Shown here piece after piece: positions 7,946 to 21,633 of a stretch of DNA of 21,760 nt (positions are counted from its first letter, which is position 1; the number at the start of each line of letters is the position of its first letter). The notes beneath the pieces are model-generated. The model was given only the letters and a program-made list of their open reading frames with translations, ran no database searches and was not told the DNA's origin. The position numbers and the translations under genes are program-made. The DNA comes from a virus, in IMG/VR virus record IMGVR_UViG_3300028008_000123, positions 1-21,760 of that record, one strand, 5' to 3'.

Positions 7946-8348
7946 CGCAGAGGTGACCATATATAACCGCAAGGTGAATCCGGATACGCGGAAAATAGAG
8001 TATTTCGGGCATATATCTCCTTGCCATTATTACTGCGAAAATAAGGTGATAACGGGCGATAAAGGAGAAGGTGGCCTAAAGCATGCTGATGTATTTAAAA
8101 TCCGGATTCCGGCCGAATATCTTGACGGTTATGTGCCGCCGGATGAGTATGTGAAGCTGCCGTACAGCAATGATATGGCTGCGTGGACAGTGGACAAGGA
8201 AGACTTATTCATCTTAGGTAGACATGACCTGCGGATAAAAGGGGTTAGTGATCTGCAGAAGACGCACAGGCCATATGGCTGTATAGATAACTATGGGGAT
8301 AACCGCAAAGGCGGAATCCCCCATATAAGATTTGGAGGTTGTAAGTAA
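7935..8348 (+). CDS. Probable head closure/stopper-position protein (DUF6751-like)
   Basis: A 137-residue protein starting MIINAEVTIYNRKVNPDTRK. This opening and the position between the adaptor and the minor capsid/tail completion genes match small phage proteins I remember as DUF6751, and the slot where SPP1-like phages encode the head closure protein. The sequence looks beta-rich, with FKIRIPAEY, YVKLPYSND and DLFILGRHDLRIKGV. ATG 7935 is chosen because GGGGGTG lies just upstream and homologous proteins begin this way; the frame stays open further left but only as an out-of-frame overlap with the adaptor. Function is inferred mainly from gene order. Confidence 0.7.
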   Translation: MIINAEVTIYNRKVNPDTRKIEYFGHISPCHYYCENKVITGDKGEGGLKHADVFKIRIPAEYLDGYVPPDEYVKLPYSNDMAAWTVDKEDLFILGRHDLRIKGVSDLQKTHRPYGCIDNYGDNRKGGIPHIRFGGCK

Positions 8349-9107: not shown

Positions 9108-9662
9108 ATGAGAAGATTGGATTTACAGAGGTTTGCGGACACTGAAGCAGTGCAGCGGTATCAGGAGGCATTGTATATCAATGTCGGCGCTGCAGGCGCG
9201 GCCGCAACATACGAACTGTTCGGAACCGGTGTGACCAAAGCTGATGAGAGCTTTGACACGAAAACTAAAGAGAGCCGCTACATCAACCAGAAATCTACAT
9301 CTCAGAGTATTACGGGATATGGGTATTCCATTGGCTATGAATATGAGAATATCCCGTCCGAAAAGGCCGTCAAGATGATTGATTCTGTGGCAAAAAAGGA
9401 GAAAGTAGGCTCTGAAGCGGAGACAGACCTTGTGGTCGTATCCCTGTACATGGAAAAAGAAGAAAGCAAGGGGTATCCGGCAAGAAAAAGGAGAGTGACC
9501 ATCTCCCCGGATTCCAATTCCGATAACGACGGAACTATGGTAGGTTCCGGCAGCCTCCTGGGCAAAACAGACTGGGAGTATGGCTTCTTTGATGTGGAGA
9601 AAAAGGCGTTTACTGCAGACGCCACAGCTGCGGCAAAATTTGATGTGTCGGCGGGAAATTAG
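9108..9662 (+). CDS. Major tail (tube) protein, short form, with L27-like Prp cleavage motif
   Basis: A 184-residue protein in the tail tube slot between the tail terminator and tail chaperones. Typical phrases are KSTSQSITGYGYSIGYEYENIPSEK, TDLVVVSLYMEKEE and DSNSDNDGTMVGSGSLLGKTDWEYGFFD. It starts MRRLDLQRFADTE, matching S. aureus L27 (MLKLNLQFFA...) in register at M1, L4, L6, Q7, F9 and A10. The phage Prp-like protease could therefore cut after F9. ATG 9108 is set by AAAGGTAGGA upstream; extending left to 9066 would run into the previous gene. The final codons GGA AAT TAG hold a canonical -1 slippery site, so a 217-residue long form is expected too. Confidence 0.92.
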   Translation: MRRLDLQRFADTEAVQRYQEALYINVGAAGAAATYELFGTGVTKADESFDTKTKESRYINQKSTSQSITGYGYSIGYEYENIPSEKAVKMIDSVAKKEKVGSEAETDLVVVSLYMEKEESKGYPARKRRVTISPDSNSDNDGTMVGSGSLLGKTDWEYGFFDVEKKAFTADATAAAKFDVSAGN

Positions 9663-9700
9663 TTGGTGCTCCGGTAACAACGGCAGCCGAAGCACCGACT
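9653..9700 (+). promoter_or_regulatory. Candidate -1 programmed frameshift signal at the end of the major tail gene
   Basis: G_GGA_AAT (9653-9659) is a canonical X_XXY_YYZ heptamer in the right phase, directly followed by the zero-frame stop TAG (9660-9662). AGTTGGTGCT (9661-9670) pairs with AGCACCGACT (9691-9700) over 10 positions with a single G-U. The strong inner six pairs start 5 bases after the heptamer. After slippage the -1 frame stays open to TAG at 9758-9760. Confidence 0.82.
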
Positions 9701-9760
9701 AAAGTGGCCGTAAATAAAGTAGCTATAGAGACCGCAAAAAGTGAGGCTGGGACTGAATAG
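9659..9760 (+). CDS. -1 frameshift extension of the major tail protein (33 codons)
   Basis: In the -1 frame the tail gene continues for 33 codons, LVGAPVTTAAEAPTKVAVNK and then VAIETAKSEAGTE, to TAG. The extension has no start codon or ribosome binding site of its own, and it fills the otherwise empty 125 bases between the tail protein stop and the next gene. It is rich in Ala, Thr, Val, Lys and Glu and looks flexible. Fused to the tube protein it gives a 217-residue minor form. Two-form tail tube proteins made by frameshifting are known in SPP1 and Listeria phage PSA, both +1; here the geometry is -1. Confidence 0.78.
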   Translation, partial: LVGAPVTTAAEAPTKVAVNKVAIETAKSEAGTE

Positions 9761-9772
9761 TCCTGGCCTTTT
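9744..9772 (+). terminator. Hairpin with weak terminator features overlapping the end of the tail extension
   Basis: AGGCTGGGAC (9744-9753) pairs with GTCCTGGCCT (9760-9769) over ten positions with two G-U pairs, loop TGAATA, then only four T (9769-9772). It spans the stop of the -1 extension. It may lower transcription into the chaperone and tape measure genes, which are needed in fewer copies than tail tube protein. Confidence 0.5.
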
Positions 9773-9787
9773 ACGGAGGTAGAGGAA

Positions 9788-10138
9788 ATGCAGGTAAATT
9801 TTGACACGCTTAACTTTGATGCAACAGATGCGGACACCCTGCAAAAGTATCTTGATGCAATGCAGATCGTTTCAGAAAAGGCGAATAGGCTTGATAAAGA
9901 CGCTCCGCAGCCAAAACAGTATCAGTATCTTTGCGAGACTGTTAAAACATGTTTCGATGATATATTCGGGGCTGGCACTGGAGAAAAAATCTGTGGGGCC
10001 AACAACTCTCTAAGAGCCTGCACAAATGCGCTTAGAGAACTGGTAGAAGAATATAATCACCAGATGAGCGAACAGAAGAGAGCGAATGAAGCGCTCATTG
10101 CGGAAATGGAAACTGGGAAGGCTGTTGATACAGAGTGA
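9788..10138 (+). CDS. Tail assembly chaperone (gpG position, DUF6673-like)
   Basis: A 116-residue protein between the major tail protein and the Gp15-like gene, the place of the first tail assembly chaperone. Chaperones of this class coat the tape measure protein during tail assembly. Sequence features are an acidic start (FDTLNFDATDADTLQKYLDAM), a basic-aromatic centre (CETVKTCFDDIFGAGTGEKICG) and a helical end (EEYNHQMSEQKRANEALIAEM). The DDIFGAGTGEKI-like motif resembles DUF6673. GGAGGTAGAGGAA provides the ribosome binding site. The stop overlaps the next start as GTGA. No slippery site is present for a G/GT-type fusion. Confidence 0.72.
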   Translation: MQVNFDTLNFDATDADTLQKYLDAMQIVSEKANRLDKDAPQPKQYQYLCETVKTCFDDIFGAGTGEKICGANNSLRACTNALRELVEEYNHQMSEQKRANEALIAEMETGKAVDTE

Positions 10139-10734
10139 GATTAACAGAACAGCTTCCAGTAACTGTAGAAATTGCGGGAGAAGCATATGCAATCAAAACG
10201 GATTTTAGAGATATCCTCCGTTATGATGAGACTATTAGGGGACAGAGTGATGGAGAAGCGGTATTAAAGGCCATAAACATGCTTTTGGGAGAAGAGGTGC
10301 TACGCAAACCAAATATGAGAGCTGACGATATAGCAGAGGCGATCGGATGGTTTGTCAAATGCGGGGATATCAACAAAAAGAATACTCTCCCGCGTGCTGT
10401 ACTGGGCCTTAACAATGCGGTACCTATGGATTTTGGCACGGATTCCGCTTTGATTTATACCGCCTTCCTACAGACATACGGGCTTGATCTGTATGATATC
10501 CCATATCTGCACTGGTGGAAATTTAATTGGATGCTGGAGGACATTTCTCCTTCGTGCCGTCTGTCAAAGGTAATTGAGTACCGGACGATAGATACGAAAA
10601 ACAAAAATCTGTCCAAGGAACAGAAGAAAGCTTATGCGGCCTTACAGCGGTATTTCCGTGTCCAGGAAAAGAAATCTGAAGAAGATGATGCCATAGTACA
10701 GGCACTCCTGGAAGGGAGGGACCCATTTGGATAA
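10135..10734 (+). CDS. Bacteriophage Gp15-like tail assembly protein
   Basis: A 199-residue protein of the Phage_Gp15 family (PF06854). It starts MRLTEQLPVTVEIAGEAYAI followed by KTDFRDILRYDETI, with HWWKFNWMLEDISPSCRLSKVIEYRTID-like text in the middle and a charged C-terminus with KNLSKEQKKAYAALQRYF. The WWKFNWML segment followed by a YR motif is the clearest family mark. It acts with the preceding gene in tail assembly around the tape measure. The GTG start overlaps the previous stop (GTGA), so translation is probably coupled. Its own stop overlaps the start of a tiny zinc-ribbon gene. Confidence 0.85.
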   Translation: MRLTEQLPVTVEIAGEAYAIKTDFRDILRYDETIRGQSDGEAVLKAINMLLGEEVLRKPNMRADDIAEAIGWFVKCGDINKKNTLPRAVLGLNNAVPMDFGTDSALIYTAFLQTYGLDLYDIPYLHWWKFNWMLEDISPSCRLSKVIEYRTIDTKNKNLSKEQKKAYAALQRYFRVQEKKSEEDDAIVQALLEGRDPFG

Positions 10735-10879
10735 AGACAAGAAGCGCATAAAGATTGTGTGCCCTTATTGCGGATATAAAATGCCCATAGCTTATGACCC
10801 GGCAAGGGTTATTTGCCAGGGTGTATACATCCAATGCAAGGGCCGAAAGTGCAAAAAAGAATTTGAAATAAGGATTTAA
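10727..10879 (+). CDS. Small zinc-ribbon (Com-like) protein
   Basis: A 50-residue frame runs from TTG 10727 to TAA 10877-10879, overlapping the Gp15-like gene by 8 bases. GGGAGGG lies 7 bases upstream, an excellent ribosome binding site. The peptide has CPYCG (C12, C15), C30, and CKGRKC (C37, C42), giving two Cys pairs plus one extra Cys, and ends EFEIRI. This is the pattern of a small zinc ribbon such as the Mu Com protein, which regulates translation of a neighbouring gene. In this slot, between the chaperones and the tape measure, it might regulate or chaperone the tape measure, but that is inference. Confidence 0.75.
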   Translation: MDKDKKRIKIVCPYCGYKMPIAYDPARVICQGVYIQCKGRKCKKEFEIRI

Positions 10880-10934
10880 GTGTCAAGTAGAGCCATTACG
10901 AGCCGATGACGCTTGCGAAAGGCAGGTGGGATTA

Positions 10935-13900
10935 TTGGCTGATGGCAAAATTACGATTGAAACAAGTATAGATAATGCTGGGGCGCTAAAAGACCTTAAA
11001 AAGCTGACAAGTAACGTCAGCCAACAGGGTAATGCGGCAGCAGGGGCGGCGTCCAGTGCTTTTAGTAAGATTGGTTCCGCCGCAAAGCATTCGGCGGCAA
11101 TCGCAGTAACGGCCCTTGCTGGTGTAGGGACGGCTGTCGCGGCGGCTGGTGGGCTAGCCGTAAAAGTTGGTTCTGATTTCGAGGCTGCCATGTCAAAAGT
11201 AGCCGCTGTTTCTGGTGCGACCGGGACAGACCTTAGCAAACTGACCGAAAAAGCTAAGGAGATGGGAGCGAAAACAAAATTCTCTGCTTCGGAAGCCGCT
11301 GAAGCCATGAATTATATGGCAATGGCCGGTTGGAAAACAGAGGAAATGCTGAATGGTGTAGAAGGTATCATGAATCTGGCGGCGGCGTCAGGAGAGGATT
11401 TGGCGTCTACATCTGATATTGTGACGGATGCATTGAGTTCGTTCGGATTACAGGCCAGTGACAGCGGGCATTTTGCTGATATCCTTGCAGCAGCGTCCAG
11501 TAATGCGAATACCAATGTTGCCATGATGGGCGAAACATTTAAGTATGCAGCGTCTGTTGCCGGTGCAATGGGGTATACTGCGGAAGATACAGCCCTTGCA
11601 ATTGGGCTGATGGCAAATAGAGGTATAAAAGCAAGTCAAGCGGGTACTGCACTCCGGAGTATCATGACAAGACTTGCAAAGCCAACAAAAGAGACTCAGG
11701 GAGCCATGAACAAGCTTAGTATCTCCCTGACGGATTCTGAGGGCAATATGAAGTCCCTGGATACTATCATGCAGGATCTGCGTGAGGGATTTTCTGGATT
11801 AAGTGAGGAAGAAAAAGCGGCTACTGCGGCAGCATTAGGCGGCCAGGAGGCAATGTCTGGTCTGCTGGCTATTGTAGGAGCCTCCCCAGAAGAATATGAA
11901 AAACTGCAAAGCGCCATTGCAAATTGTGACGGTACTGCTGAGAGAATGGCAGAAACCATGCTGGACAATCTTCAGGGAAGTCTAACCATTCTCAAATCCT
12001 CTCTGGAAGGTCTGGGAATCGAAGTATACGAGAGTATGCAGGAGCCTTTAAAGAATGCTGCAGATAACGGGATTGCGGACGTCAACAGACTCACAGAGGC
12101 TTTTAAGCAGGGCGGATTTGATGCTGCTGTCGAAGAGGCAGGAGACATACTGGCAGGACTTGCTACGAAGGTAGCACAATCAGCCCCAAAGATGATAGAC
12201 GCCTCAGTTTCCGTAGTTAAATCCTTTGTAAAAGGTATTGGCAAAAACAAGATGCAGCTTAAAGTTGCTGCGGATGATATCGTCAAATCTCTGTGTAACG
12301 GATTGGTAAAGCTCCTTCCGAAGGAAATGCAGAAACCTGCAAAGAAAGCCCTGGATTCTCTCGTAAGGACATTCAAGTCGGGGACTAAAAACCTCTTGAG
12401 CGTTGCACAGTCAGTTTTAAACGCTGTAGGTGCAGTGTTTAAAAGGCTGGGTGGGAATATGGATGACATTATCCCTACTGTTGTCAGCATTGTGGCGGCC
12501 TTTAAAACTTTCAAAGCCGTTACCGGTCCGGTGTCATCCGTTGTAAGCGTTATCACCAAATTAACAGGAGCCGCAAAAGGAGCAGGTCTTGCTACCACTG
12601 CCCTGAATGCTATTATGGCTGCAAACCCTGCGACCCTGATTGCCGGTGCCATTGCCCTACTTGTAGGCGGATTGGCTGCGTATGCACTCACGGCAGGTCG
12701 TGCGGATGAACAGCAGAGTGCCTTTAATGAGCGAATGGATAAGCTGGGAGCATCCATAGAAAAGAACCAAAATGCAATAGATCAGCTCGGGGAATCCATG
12801 AAGGATACCAGTTCTTCTATTGACGCATCAGCAGCACCTGTTGAACGTTTGCGAGGAAAATTATCTGAGGCATTTGACGAAACCGGTCACGTAAAAGAGG
12901 GGTGCGAGGATCTGGCCACATCCATCCTTAATCAGCTTAACGATGCGATGGGGACCAGTTACCACATTACATCTGAAGGCTTTATTGCAGATAATGACGA
13001 AGTTAAGCAATCATTACAAGATGTCAATACAACAATTGATGAATATGTACGCAATATAAAAAGCAAAGCATTATCTGAGGCGGCGTCTGGAAATTATACT
13101 GAAGCGATAAGAAATCAAGCAGATGCGCAGAAAGACTTAACAGATGCACAAAAAGAATATCAGAAAAGCTATGATGAATTAATTAAAGTTGATAAACAGT
13201 GGCGTGACGGTTTGGCCGATGATGATGCGTACGGCAAGGCACAAGAAAACTTAAAAAATACTACAAAAAAATTAACAGATGCAAGTCAAGCTGCTACTGA
13301 AGCCGACACAGTGGTAAAAGGCTTGGATAGTATTATGGATACCCTTGGAGAAGGTAGCCCTGAAAGTATACAAAAGGCAATGGATGCATATGCGAAGTTA
13401 CCTATTGAATCAGAAAAGGCTGCAAAGGGAGTAGCAGTAAGCGAACAAATGATTCAAGACGCACTTTCATCGACGGATTATAGTAAGATGGCAGAAGGCT
13501 TTCAATTGGCGGTAATGCAAATTGAAAAATCCGGAGGAGAAATACCTAAAAGTTTACAAGAATCAATTGTCAAAGCAGTTAATAACTTTGATAAATTAGG
13601 AACTGAAGGGAAAGAATCTGTTGCAAATTCTATGCGTCTGTTAATGGACGCAATGAAAGACAAAGTGCCCGAATTTGCTGATGTTGCGAATCTGACATCC
13701 GAGGAAATAATACAGACATTTGGAAAATACCTGAAAGACAGCGGCGCTCTTGGCGATATCGGAACAGAGGCTCTGGACAAGATGATGAAAAGCATGGAAT
13801 CTGCGGACGCCACATCTGTGCCGAATAAAAAGGGAAAAGAAGTCACTGAGACCGCCGCACAGTCTATGCGGAATGGTTACGATGTCATTAATACTGCATC

Positions 13901-16113: not shown

Positions 16114-16728
16114 ATGGAAAGCTATGGTTTTTTTAATGGAGATACCGAGTACGGACAAGATGAGTTTAACCGGTACTTTAAAAATATATATGAGGATGGC
16201 CTGAGTAGGGGGAGTAACGGTAGCCTTACTCTATCAGCCTCACTAAGCGGTGAATCGGTGGTTTTAACGCCAGGTTTTGCTATCATGCAGGGCTTTTTTT
16301 ATTACAACGACAGCAACAAAACCATACCGATCACTCGTAATAGCACCTACAAAGTGATCTATCGTCTTGTGCTGCGCTTGGATTATGAAAGTAAAACAAT
16401 ACAGGCTGTGCTCAAAGCGGGAACTGCCGGTAGTACACCCACAGTGCCAGCCCTCACAAGAGATGCATCACGATATGAACTATCCCTGTATCGTATTGAT
16501 GTCCCTGTGACCGGTCAGATATCCATAACTGACGAGAGATTCAATACTGCGGTATGTGGTGAAATCAGACCGAAAAATTTGGCTGGATACAAAGAAATGG
16601 TAGAAGAATTTGATAGGCAGTTCCAGGCGTGGTTTAAAAACGTGCAGGGAACCGGCTGGCGTAACATTTTTGCACAGGCTACGGAGCCTGGAGGGGCGGT
16701 GACAGGAGCCATATGGATAAGCGGATAA
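16114..16728 (+). CDS. Baseplate/tail structural protein of unknown type
   Basis: A 204-residue protein between Dit and the Gp37-like protein, with AGGAGGAATATAC before ATG 16114. The first part, MESYGFFNGDTEYGQDEFNR to VVLTPGFAIMQGFFYYNDS, and the strand LRLDYESKTIQAVLK suggest a beta-sandwich like N-terminal attachment domains of baseplate or receptor-binding proteins. The end is helical (KEMVEEFDRQFQAWFKN) and stops with GGAVTGAIWISG. I have seen similar proteins in clostridial phages but cannot name a family. Its stop lies inside the next gene's first codons, so the three baseplate genes are probably co-translated. A role joining Dit to the adhesins is inferred. Confidence 0.7.
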   Translation: MESYGFFNGDTEYGQDEFNRYFKNIYEDGLSRGSNGSLTLSASLSGESVVLTPGFAIMQGFFYYNDSNKTIPITRNSTYKVIYRLVLRLDYESKTIQAVLKAGTAGSTPTVPALTRDASRYELSLYRIDVPVTGQISITDERFNTAVCGEIRPKNLAGYKEMVEEFDRQFQAWFKNVQGTGWRNIFAQATEPGGAVTGAIWISG

Positions 16729-20419: not shown

Positions 20420-20620
20420 ATGAGGATATTTGGCAAGGAGTTCACCTACAATGGATACAAGGTCTACCATACTGGTGATAAGCCGACCGCTGCAGACGTT
20501 GGAACATACACAAAGGCCCAGGTAGACCAAAAAATCACAGATGGCAATGGAACAAAGATAACCGCAGCAACCGCCGCACCGAGCAGCCCGGTAAAGGGTG
20601 AAGTGTGGATCAAAGTCTGA
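20420..20620 (+). CDS. Small fibre-associated protein
   Basis: A 66-residue protein 9 bases after the fibre stop, with GGAGGCAGCT before ATG 20420. It begins with a short aromatic stretch (MRIFGKEFTYNGYKVYHTGD), then TAADVGTYTKAQVDQKI, a phrase common in fibre repeats, and ends ATAAPSSPVKGEVWIKV. The ending matches the N-terminal module of the main fibre (ATAPDSPVEGQIY) but stops short, so it may be a detached or truncated fibre module or a trimerisation/attachment protein for the tail-tip protein downstream. Function is unknown. Confidence 0.65.
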   Translation: MRIFGKEFTYNGYKVYHTGDKPTAADVGTYTKAQVDQKITDGNGTKITAATAAPSSPVKGEVWIKV

Positions 20621-20634
20621 AAGGAGAATATATT

Positions 20635-21039
20635 ATGGCTACAACAAAAAAATCACAGTTTAAGATTAACAACGGGACGGATTGGGACACTTATCATTTT
20701 GAGACTGATAGTGCCCAGGTGAAGCACAAAAAGAGTGATGGTACAGAAACCACAGTGGAAGATGTACTAAACTCCACTTTAGGAGGGTATATGATACAGG
20801 CTGGAAGAATTAATATAACTCCTAAGGCAAATACTCCAACGACAAAACGCCTAACCTTTCCAAAACCATTCAAGGAGCAGGCGATAGTCTTGTTGACCCC
20901 TATTTCAGGAGTACCAGGTCAAAAGGTGCTTGGCGTAGGTACATTAAATAATACCAGTGATGGATGTGATGTTATTGTAACGAGAACGGAAACTACAGAG
21001 ACTACAATTGCTTGGATAGCAATAGGACCAGCGGTATAG
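20635..21039 (+). CDS. Tail-tip/receptor-binding protein with invertible C-terminus (expressed orientation)
   Basis: A 134-residue protein; AAAGGAGAA lies just before ATG 20635. Residues 1-45 (MATTKKSQFKINNGTDWDTY and the following short stretch) are a fixed N-terminal part like those that attach small tip proteins. Residues 46-51, NSTLGG, are encoded by the left copy of an 18-bp inverted repeat. Residues 52-134 form the variable domain: TKRLTFPKPFKEQAIVLLTP, a V-G-T turn, and an ending TIAWIAIGPAV, a pattern I associate with gp53-like/H-type lectin tip domains that bind receptors. The domain is about 63 percent identical by hand count to a silent copy on the opposite strand. Inversion would replace residues 52-134 by 82 others without a frame change. 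Confidence 0.85.
   Translation: MATTKKSQFKINNGTDWDTYHFETDSAQVKHKKSDGTETTVEDVLNSTLGGYMIQAGRINITPKANTPTTKRLTFPKPFKEQAIVLLTPISGVPGQKVLGVGTLNNTSDGCDVIVTRTETTETTIAWIAIGPAV
20769..20786 (+). repeat. Left inverted repeat (crossover site) of invertible segment
   Basis: AAACTCCACTTTAGGAGG is repeated exactly, inverted, at 21295-21312. The site has short dyad arms CTCC and GGAG around a 6-base centre ACTTTA, as expected for a site-specific recombinase site. It encodes NSTLGG in the tail-tip gene. Confidence 0.8.
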
Positions 21040-21044
21040 CCTTT

Positions 21045-21317
21045 TTACATTGGACCGATAGCAACCCACGTAAGTATGGTTTCCGTGCTATTTGTTCTTT
21101 TGACATAGGCGTCGAACCCTTCTTTTGTATTGTTGTCAGTACCCACGCCCTGTACCGTAGTACCTGGAACGGATGTTATCGGGGTAAGTATTACGTCAGC
21201 TTTATCTTTAAAAGGCTTAGGAAATGTTACACGCTTCATGGTAGGTTCGTTGGGTTTGGGTGTTATAGTCACTCTGCCCGTCTGAATCGCCTTTCCTCCT
21301 AAAGTGGAGTTTTGCAC
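21045..21317 (-). CDS. Silent alternative C-terminal cassette of the tail-tip protein
   Basis: On the reverse strand a frame reads NSTLGG followed by KAIQTGRVTITPKPNEPTMK, then RVTFPKPFKDKADVILTP, and ends ILTWVAIGPM. It parallels the expressed C-terminus over about 89 positions with roughly 56 identities (hand count). It has only a chance GTG (21315-21317) and no ribosome binding site in front, and no N-terminal attachment part, so it should be silent in this orientation. The third-position differences and substitutions at likely loop positions (for example LNNTSDGC versus DNNTKEGF) suggest selection for a different binding surface rather than decay. Confidence 0.8.
   Translation of the reverse strand: MQNSTLGGKAIQTGRVTITPKPNEPTMKRVTFPKPFKDKADVILTPITSVPGTTVQGVGTDNNTKEGFDAYVKRTNSTETILTWVAIGPM
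21295..21312 (-). repeat. Right inverted repeat (crossover site) of invertible segment
   Basis: CCTCCTAAAGTGGAGTTT is the exact reverse complement of 20769-20786. Just outside both copies a weaker match continues (TGT-C- in the same register), so about 22 of 24 bases agree. This outer match may be part of the recombinase site. Confidence 0.8.
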
Positions 21318-21352
21318 ACGGAAAGAAGGTGATTTATATAGAAATTAGAGCC

Positions 21353-21379
21353 AGACCGGAAACGGTCTTATTTTATTTA
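21353..21379 (+). terminator. Intrinsic terminator after the tail-tip switch
   Basis: AGACCG (21353-21358) pairs with CGGTCT (21363-21368) around a GAAA tetraloop, then TATTTTATTT. It ends transcription of the tail module before the lysis-side genes. The XhlA-like ribosome binding site starts about 12 bases later. Confidence 0.7.
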
Positions 21380-21405
21380 GCAAAATCATGAAGGAGACAG
21401 CATAC

Positions 21406-21633
21406 ATGGATACTATCATTTCGGCCTGCATATCTGCAGGCGTTACTCTAATTGTCTGCCTGATAAGCAACAAGAGCCAGCAGGAAAAAACGCGGGCATT
21501 GATGGAATATAAGCTGGAAGAGCTTACAAAAAAGGTAGAAAAACATAACTCGGTTGTGGAAAGAACCTACATTTTGGAAGAGAAAATGAAGGTTGCCAAC
21601 CATAGGATTGAAGATTTGGAAAAGGAGAGGTGA
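21406..21633 (+). CDS. XhlA-like small membrane protein (lysis accessory)
   Basis: A 75-residue protein with one hydrophobic N-terminal segment (TIISACISAGVTLIVCLI, about residues 3-20) and a long charged helix likely to form a coiled coil, ending EKMKVANHRIEDLEKER. The arrangement and the VANHRIEDLE ending match XhlA/hemolysin-like proteins found with holins and endolysins in PBSX-type phages, where XhlA helps the holin release the endolysin. AAGGAG lies 10 bases before ATG 21406. The in-frame ATG 21388 would include the ribosome binding site itself. Holin and endolysin genes are expected beyond the window. Confidence 0.8.
   Translation: MDTIISACISAGVTLIVCLISNKSQQEKTRALMEYKLEELTKKVEKHNSVVERTYILEEKMKVANHRIEDLEKER

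Follow-up and report, generated by a model that had tools for sequence, protein, structure and literature searches.

The tail-tip gene of a virus of gut Blautia is followed, tail to tail, by a second and silent version of its own C-terminal end, an arrangement that raises the question of whether the two ends are exchanged by DNA inversion, by which class of recombinase, and whether the exchange still occurs. The window, as we call the entire 21,760-nucleotide stretch analyzed here, carries Dit, Gp37-like and tail-fibre genes upstream of the tip gene and a small gene after it, and the locus type belongs to temperate siphophages of Blautia. The original prediction described a module that swaps, by DNA inversion, the probable receptor-binding end of the tip protein, and gave positions for the gene, the reverse frame and the repeats; these positions are correct (Table 1), and the module itself is supported by the analysis presented below.

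Table 1 Features of the two-cassette locus, in window coordinates
Feature	Position	Strand	Basis
Constant head of the tail-tip gene, residues 1-45	20635..20768	+	ORF 20635-21039
Recombination site 1, AAACTCCACTTTAGGAGG, core CTAAA-CTCCAC-TTTAG	20769..20786	+	
Cassette A, in expressed orientation; C-terminal domain of the gp53-like tail-fibre type, with a predicted lectin-like fold	20770..21036	+	PF21882, model and fold search
Cassette B, silent orientation, headless	21045..21311	-	PF21882
Recombination site 4, inverted copy of site 1	21295..21312	-	
Right flank	21313..21374		82% identity to the sequence that lies past site 4 in the L006 shufflon

The tip protein has 134 residues (20635-21039), and the reverse frame spans 21045-21317. 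As had been proposed, the two encode versions of one C-terminal domain, with 57 of 89 positions identical by BLASTP (64%, E 8e-40) compared with 56 of 89 in the earlier hand count. The constant head, which is 90-94% identical in L004, L005, L006 and L016, ends at the point where homology switches between phages. Direct string comparison confirmed that the two 18-bp repeats are exact and identified the AAACTCCACTTTAGGAGG pair as the sole exact inverted repeat of at least 14 bp in the window; an automated repeat search returned no inverted repeat here. In both copies the site is translated as NSTLGG, in identical codon phase, and inversion in silico yields the intact 133-residue protein that had been foreseen. 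The reverse frame was rightly described as headless, because no ribosome-binding-site-like sequence lies upstream of it and its GTG is part of a GTGCA/GTACA flank common to the silent sites of relatives. The Blautia phage Montmirail (L027 5004-5267 and 8026-8250) carries a single member of the tip-cassette family without any site, and thus a fixed version of the tip with no switch; its downstream gene is 97% identical to window 21388-21633.

Two relatives carry a larger form of the locus. In the Blautia parvula prophage L006, the elements downstream of the same head are, in order, cassette D, an inverted cassette E, a tyrosine recombinase gene, A' and an inverted B', with sites at 8135 (+), 8655 (-), 9817 (+) and 10345 (-). 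The viral contig L025 has four sites in the same +,-,+,- order and a recombinase 86% identical to that of L006, again encoded between sites 2 and 3; its head (MAEVTGKK...) differs from that of the window. The recombinase of both loci contains PF00589 and an N-terminal SAM-like domain and resembles XerC, XerD and XerA, and its proximity to and co-occurrence with the sites suggest that it acts on them. Directly after the L006 shufflon, where the window has its downstream genes, lies an integrase-like tyrosine recombinase (10606-11796), and the L006 prophage may be rearranged or may end in this region.

The window matches what remains of such an array once its first and third sites are joined. 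The homologue of cassette A is silent at position 3 of L006, and cassette B is 95% identical in amino acids to the cassette at position 4. Joining L006 sites 1 and 3 in silico removes 1,682 bp with the recombinase gene and cassettes D and E. The resulting product is 84.6% identical to window 20535-21375, compared with 67.5% for the undeleted locus. Identity to this product is even along its length (head 83.7%, cassettes 85.5%, right flank 82.3%). The same reduced layout is found in L016, in L014/L026 and in G011, a genome of the same genus as B. parvula that holds an L016-like prophage (99.8%) in the same reduced form. Assembly collapse is conceivable as the cause of the missing recombinase in the window itself; it is unlikely as a general cause, because the G011 copy lies on a 6.1-Mb contig. 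The descent of the window unit from a tyrosine shufflon is well supported. The event would have been a deletion, and the reverse, insertion of a circle, is a possibility.

Our favored reading, to which we assign a probability of about 0.8, is that the window segment represents a receptor-binding-protein shufflon unit with two cassettes, which was reduced by site 1 × site 3 recombination and which either needs an outside recombinase or is fixed in the A-on state. Strands would be exchanged at the dif-like core CTAAA-CTCC(A/G)C-TTTAG by an Xer-like tyrosine recombinase of phage origin, inverting 20769-21312 and joining the constant head to either of two lectin-like ends. The parent would be an array of four cassettes, its sites in +,-,+,- order and its recombinase gene located between sites 2 and 3, from which recombination of the direct sites 1 and 3 would remove D, E and that gene, the window being the remainder. 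The two inverted sites left behind would then be served by a recombinase from a co-resident prophage, the host or the unsequenced part of the phage, or else A would stay on.

The site itself fits this class of enzyme. The consensus of 15 aligned sites is GTRYW-AAACTCCRCTTTRGG, with a few departures in the flank, and around the center site 1 shows short inverted arms (CTAAA and TTTAG) and a six-base asymmetric spacer, CTCC(A/G)C. Such geometry is expected for a Xer-type tyrosine recombinase. A scan for the site pattern covered viral contigs and about 400 host-family genomes; among these genomes G003 alone gave exact matches, and G011 was found through a genus search. In a distant relative with a tail protein 65% identical (L086 8438-8647), a different cassette start follows the AAACTCCGCTTT core, soon after which the contig stops.

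Signs of inversion and exchange at these sites are visible among the relatives. On contig 2878502230, E is on and D is off, the reverse of L006; the segment, which contains a 10-N scaffold gap, aligns reversed to L006 8680-8135 at 81.8% identity, breaks at the sites and stands beside a different head. A flipped form in related genomes, which the original prediction had proposed to look for, is thus present for the sister pair D/E (L006 versus L139/L140/L190; L006 versus L190, 81.8% identity). For the A/B pair none was found in the viral-contig site scan or in searches with the tip protein, the tail-fibre protein and the cassette profile. Single cassettes also differ in state between phages: B2 (90% identical) is on in L025 and off in L004, and A is on in the window and L004 and silent in L006. 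Two different heads are combined with the same cassettes, the second (MAEVxGKKIKELEL) at L014 6269 and L025 5735, and because homology breaks at the site in these loci, heads and ends are exchanged between phages there. Finally, three contigs, those of L004, L005 and L139, stop at a site or inside one (rough chance 3e-6), which suggests mixed configurations in the sample, as an 18-bp repeat is shorter than the usual assembly words.

Whether the unit still flips depends on a recombinase that the reduced loci do not encode. The window contains neither a tyrosine nor a serine recombinase, and the locus lacks a recombinase gene in the reduced relatives too. No tyrosine recombinase is encoded anywhere in the longer reduced records G064 (33.9 kb) and G001 (36.8 kb), or in the G011 prophage region. 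The whole G011 genome is likewise without a shufflon-type recombinase, its closest match being Xer-like and 29% identical. Since the window and this Blautia-genus genome of the same layout lack a cognate enzyme, flipping would occur only with outside help, or the unit is frozen. It follows from these data, from the A/B pair being seen in one orientation only and from selection that may predate the loss that activity in the window phage today has about even odds.

The possibility that the unit stopped flipping after recombinase loss, leaving A fixed and B as a leftover, comes close to an even chance. It agrees with the recombinase-free records and with the identical A/B orientation in L016 and G011. 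However, cassette B is intact and under strong purifying selection (window versus L006, dN/dS 0.047, probability under neutrality 1e-9), as are silent cassettes in general (dN/dS 0.02-0.05). Cassette B3 behaves likewise between two recombinase-less lineages, L016 and L014, with 1 nonsynonymous and 13 synonymous changes (dN/dS 0.02, neutrality probability 2e-7). Furthermore, both window sites read CTCCAC, a core change absent from the relatives, whose aligned sites read CTCCGC; this paired change is best explained if, in the lineage of the window itself, the copies exchanged sequence or matching spacers were selected for. Purifying selection on the silent cassettes may nevertheless predate the loss, and a recent loss would still fit both the selection on B and B3 and the paired change.

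The same selection on B and paired site change speak for an active two-state switch whose recombinase acts in trans or comes from the unsequenced part of the phage genome, a reading that we regard as a substantial possibility, short of an even one. The window is a fragment. In G447, the phage from which L092 is taken, a related recombinase (30% identity) is encoded at a distance of about 21 kb from the tail-to-tail cassettes of that phage; cross-acting enzymes are known among serine invertases. Against it stand G064, G001 and the G011 prophage region with no tyrosine recombinase.

That the second copy arose by simple tandem duplication, the repeat being due to chance or ancestry and recombination playing no part, is highly improbable. 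An 18-bp inverted repeat is expected by chance 0.003 times per whole window and 0.0003 times within 1 kb, but since the two domains are homologous, some exact match is to be expected, and we rely on a codon test instead of these figures. Common ancestry of the domains alone could conceivably leave 18 matching bases, although by our own estimate with a probability of about 2%. The first three site codons show no synonymous variation in 16 cassettes (AAC 16/16, TCC 16/16, GCT in 14/14 of the Ala copies), whereas at other conserved residues the commonest codon averages 58%. One L025 cassette, unrelated in sequence, still keeps AAACTCCGCTTT. These two observations mark the repeat as a site that is conserved as DNA. 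The switch of homology at the site between phages and the inverted isomer in a relative also argue against simple duplication.

The Gin/Cin-type switch that the original prediction brought in by analogy, a serine invertase acting on dix-type sites, resembles the locus in layout and purpose, with tail-protein ends in opposite orientations, but retains next to no probability, because the window, whose repeat was already doubted as a dix-type site, has no match to the dix consensus used (one weak core-like string lies at 16118, away from the locus) and no PF00239, the serine recombinase frames of relatives are large and integrase-sized (486-580 aa), and the full relatives carry an Xer-like tyrosine recombinase and a dif-like site. 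Gin of Mu, Cin of P1 and Min of p15B share with the locus the swapping of a tail-protein end by inversion; they differ in having a serine invertase and dix sites, neither of which is found in the window, and in acting on long fibres. Multi-cassette inversion by a tyrosine recombinase is known from the R64 shufflon (Rci), which differs in being plasmid-borne, in serving a pilus adhesin and in its recombinase and site.

The locus works like the Rin-type tyrosine shufflon of Bifidobacterium prophages, its nearest described counterpart, which shares with it a receptor-binding protein with a constant head, exchangeable C-terminal ends and short repeated sites, as well as an Xer-like tyrosine invertase without an arm-binding domain, the recombinases being likened by description (PMC6109161). 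In Rin the site, TTCCCTAACCC, is 11 bp long, the cassettes stand in tandem and the invertase lies at the array edge (PMC6109161); the Blautia loci have the core AAACTCCRCTTTRGG, tail-to-tail cassette pairs and, in the full relatives, the recombinase gene inside the array. L006 and L025, which encode the recombinase at the locus, fit this phage type, and the window is a reduced derivative of it: the constant head, the exchangeable cassettes and, where each cassette begins, a short repeated site in inverted orientation to the constant gene are all present, the recombinase gene is missing, and inverted isomers exist for the sister pair D/E. A Rin-like locus of Eggerthella lenta prophages similarly combines a tyrosine recombinase with small variable genes, often with H-type lectin domains; it differs in host phylum, site and arrangement, and its recombinase is present (PMC8778435). 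No shufflon of a Blautia or Lachnospiraceae phage was found in the literature searched.

The recombinase family also occurs in other shufflon-like loci of related genomes. L064 (G022:C7:50000-64000) is a phage shufflon whose recombinase is 51-52% identical to that of L006; it has about seven ACTCCTCTTTAGCA sites, which occur in either orientation, and several silent cassettes beside a constant tail gene (9415-10482). L065, L066 and L067, all from G035, combine a recombinase 42-43% identical with repeated GCACTTAGGGCTTG sites and Gp10_C-like cassettes. L068 (G026:C39:2000-16000) is an hsdS-type inversion locus, in which a relative of the recombinase (39%) lies beside type I restriction specificity-like genes and inverted ATAAACGATAATTTAGCGG repeats. 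More distant homologues, in L029-L033, have no cassette-flanking inverted repeats. In L091 (8345-9030) and L092 (8345-9149), tail-to-tail tail-fibre ends lie between inverted copies of an unrelated site, GTTAAATCAGAATTTA; the cassettes differ between these contigs, and L091 ends at the second GTTAAATCAGAATTTA site.

As to what would be exchanged, both cassette copies have matches to PF21882, which is the gp53-like tail-fibre C-terminal domain, and to a PHROG tail-fibre family. In the AlphaFold2 model, confidence is high over the cassette (block pLDDT mostly 90-95) and low over the head. The fold matches that rank best, at E about 0.001, include the R1 pyocin fibre, Helix agglutinins (H-type lectins) and phage tailspikes; the model also matches viral proteins named H-type lectin or receptor-binding protein. 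The cassette profile had no match among the sequences of solved structures. The cassette is thus predicted to adopt a fold of the H-type-lectin/R-pyocin-fibre-tip type. Fold and position suggest that the tip is likely sugar-binding, and family and fold together point to a receptor-binding role, in which case the switch would choose between receptors.

The Rin study asked how arm-less tyrosine shufflons flip inverted sites yet avoid deletion between direct ones (PMC6109161). The Blautia tip family suggests that deletion does occur, that it removes the recombinase gene, and that it leaves a recognizable minimal product. The question is directly testable, with a defined site, a recombinase gene and a sequenced carrier, Blautia parvula NBRC 113351. 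Because the gene lies between directly repeated sites, the recombinase could delete its own gene; we consider it a speculative and rather unlikely extension that the shufflon trims itself in this way, from a four-state switch to a two-state or locked one, and that the excised circle (about 1.68 kb, with the recombinase and two cassettes) could re-enter any site-bearing phage. Variation of the receptor-binding end helps decide which gut bacteria a phage enters, and re-entry of such circles, if it takes place, would spread both switching and receptor modules between Blautia phages.
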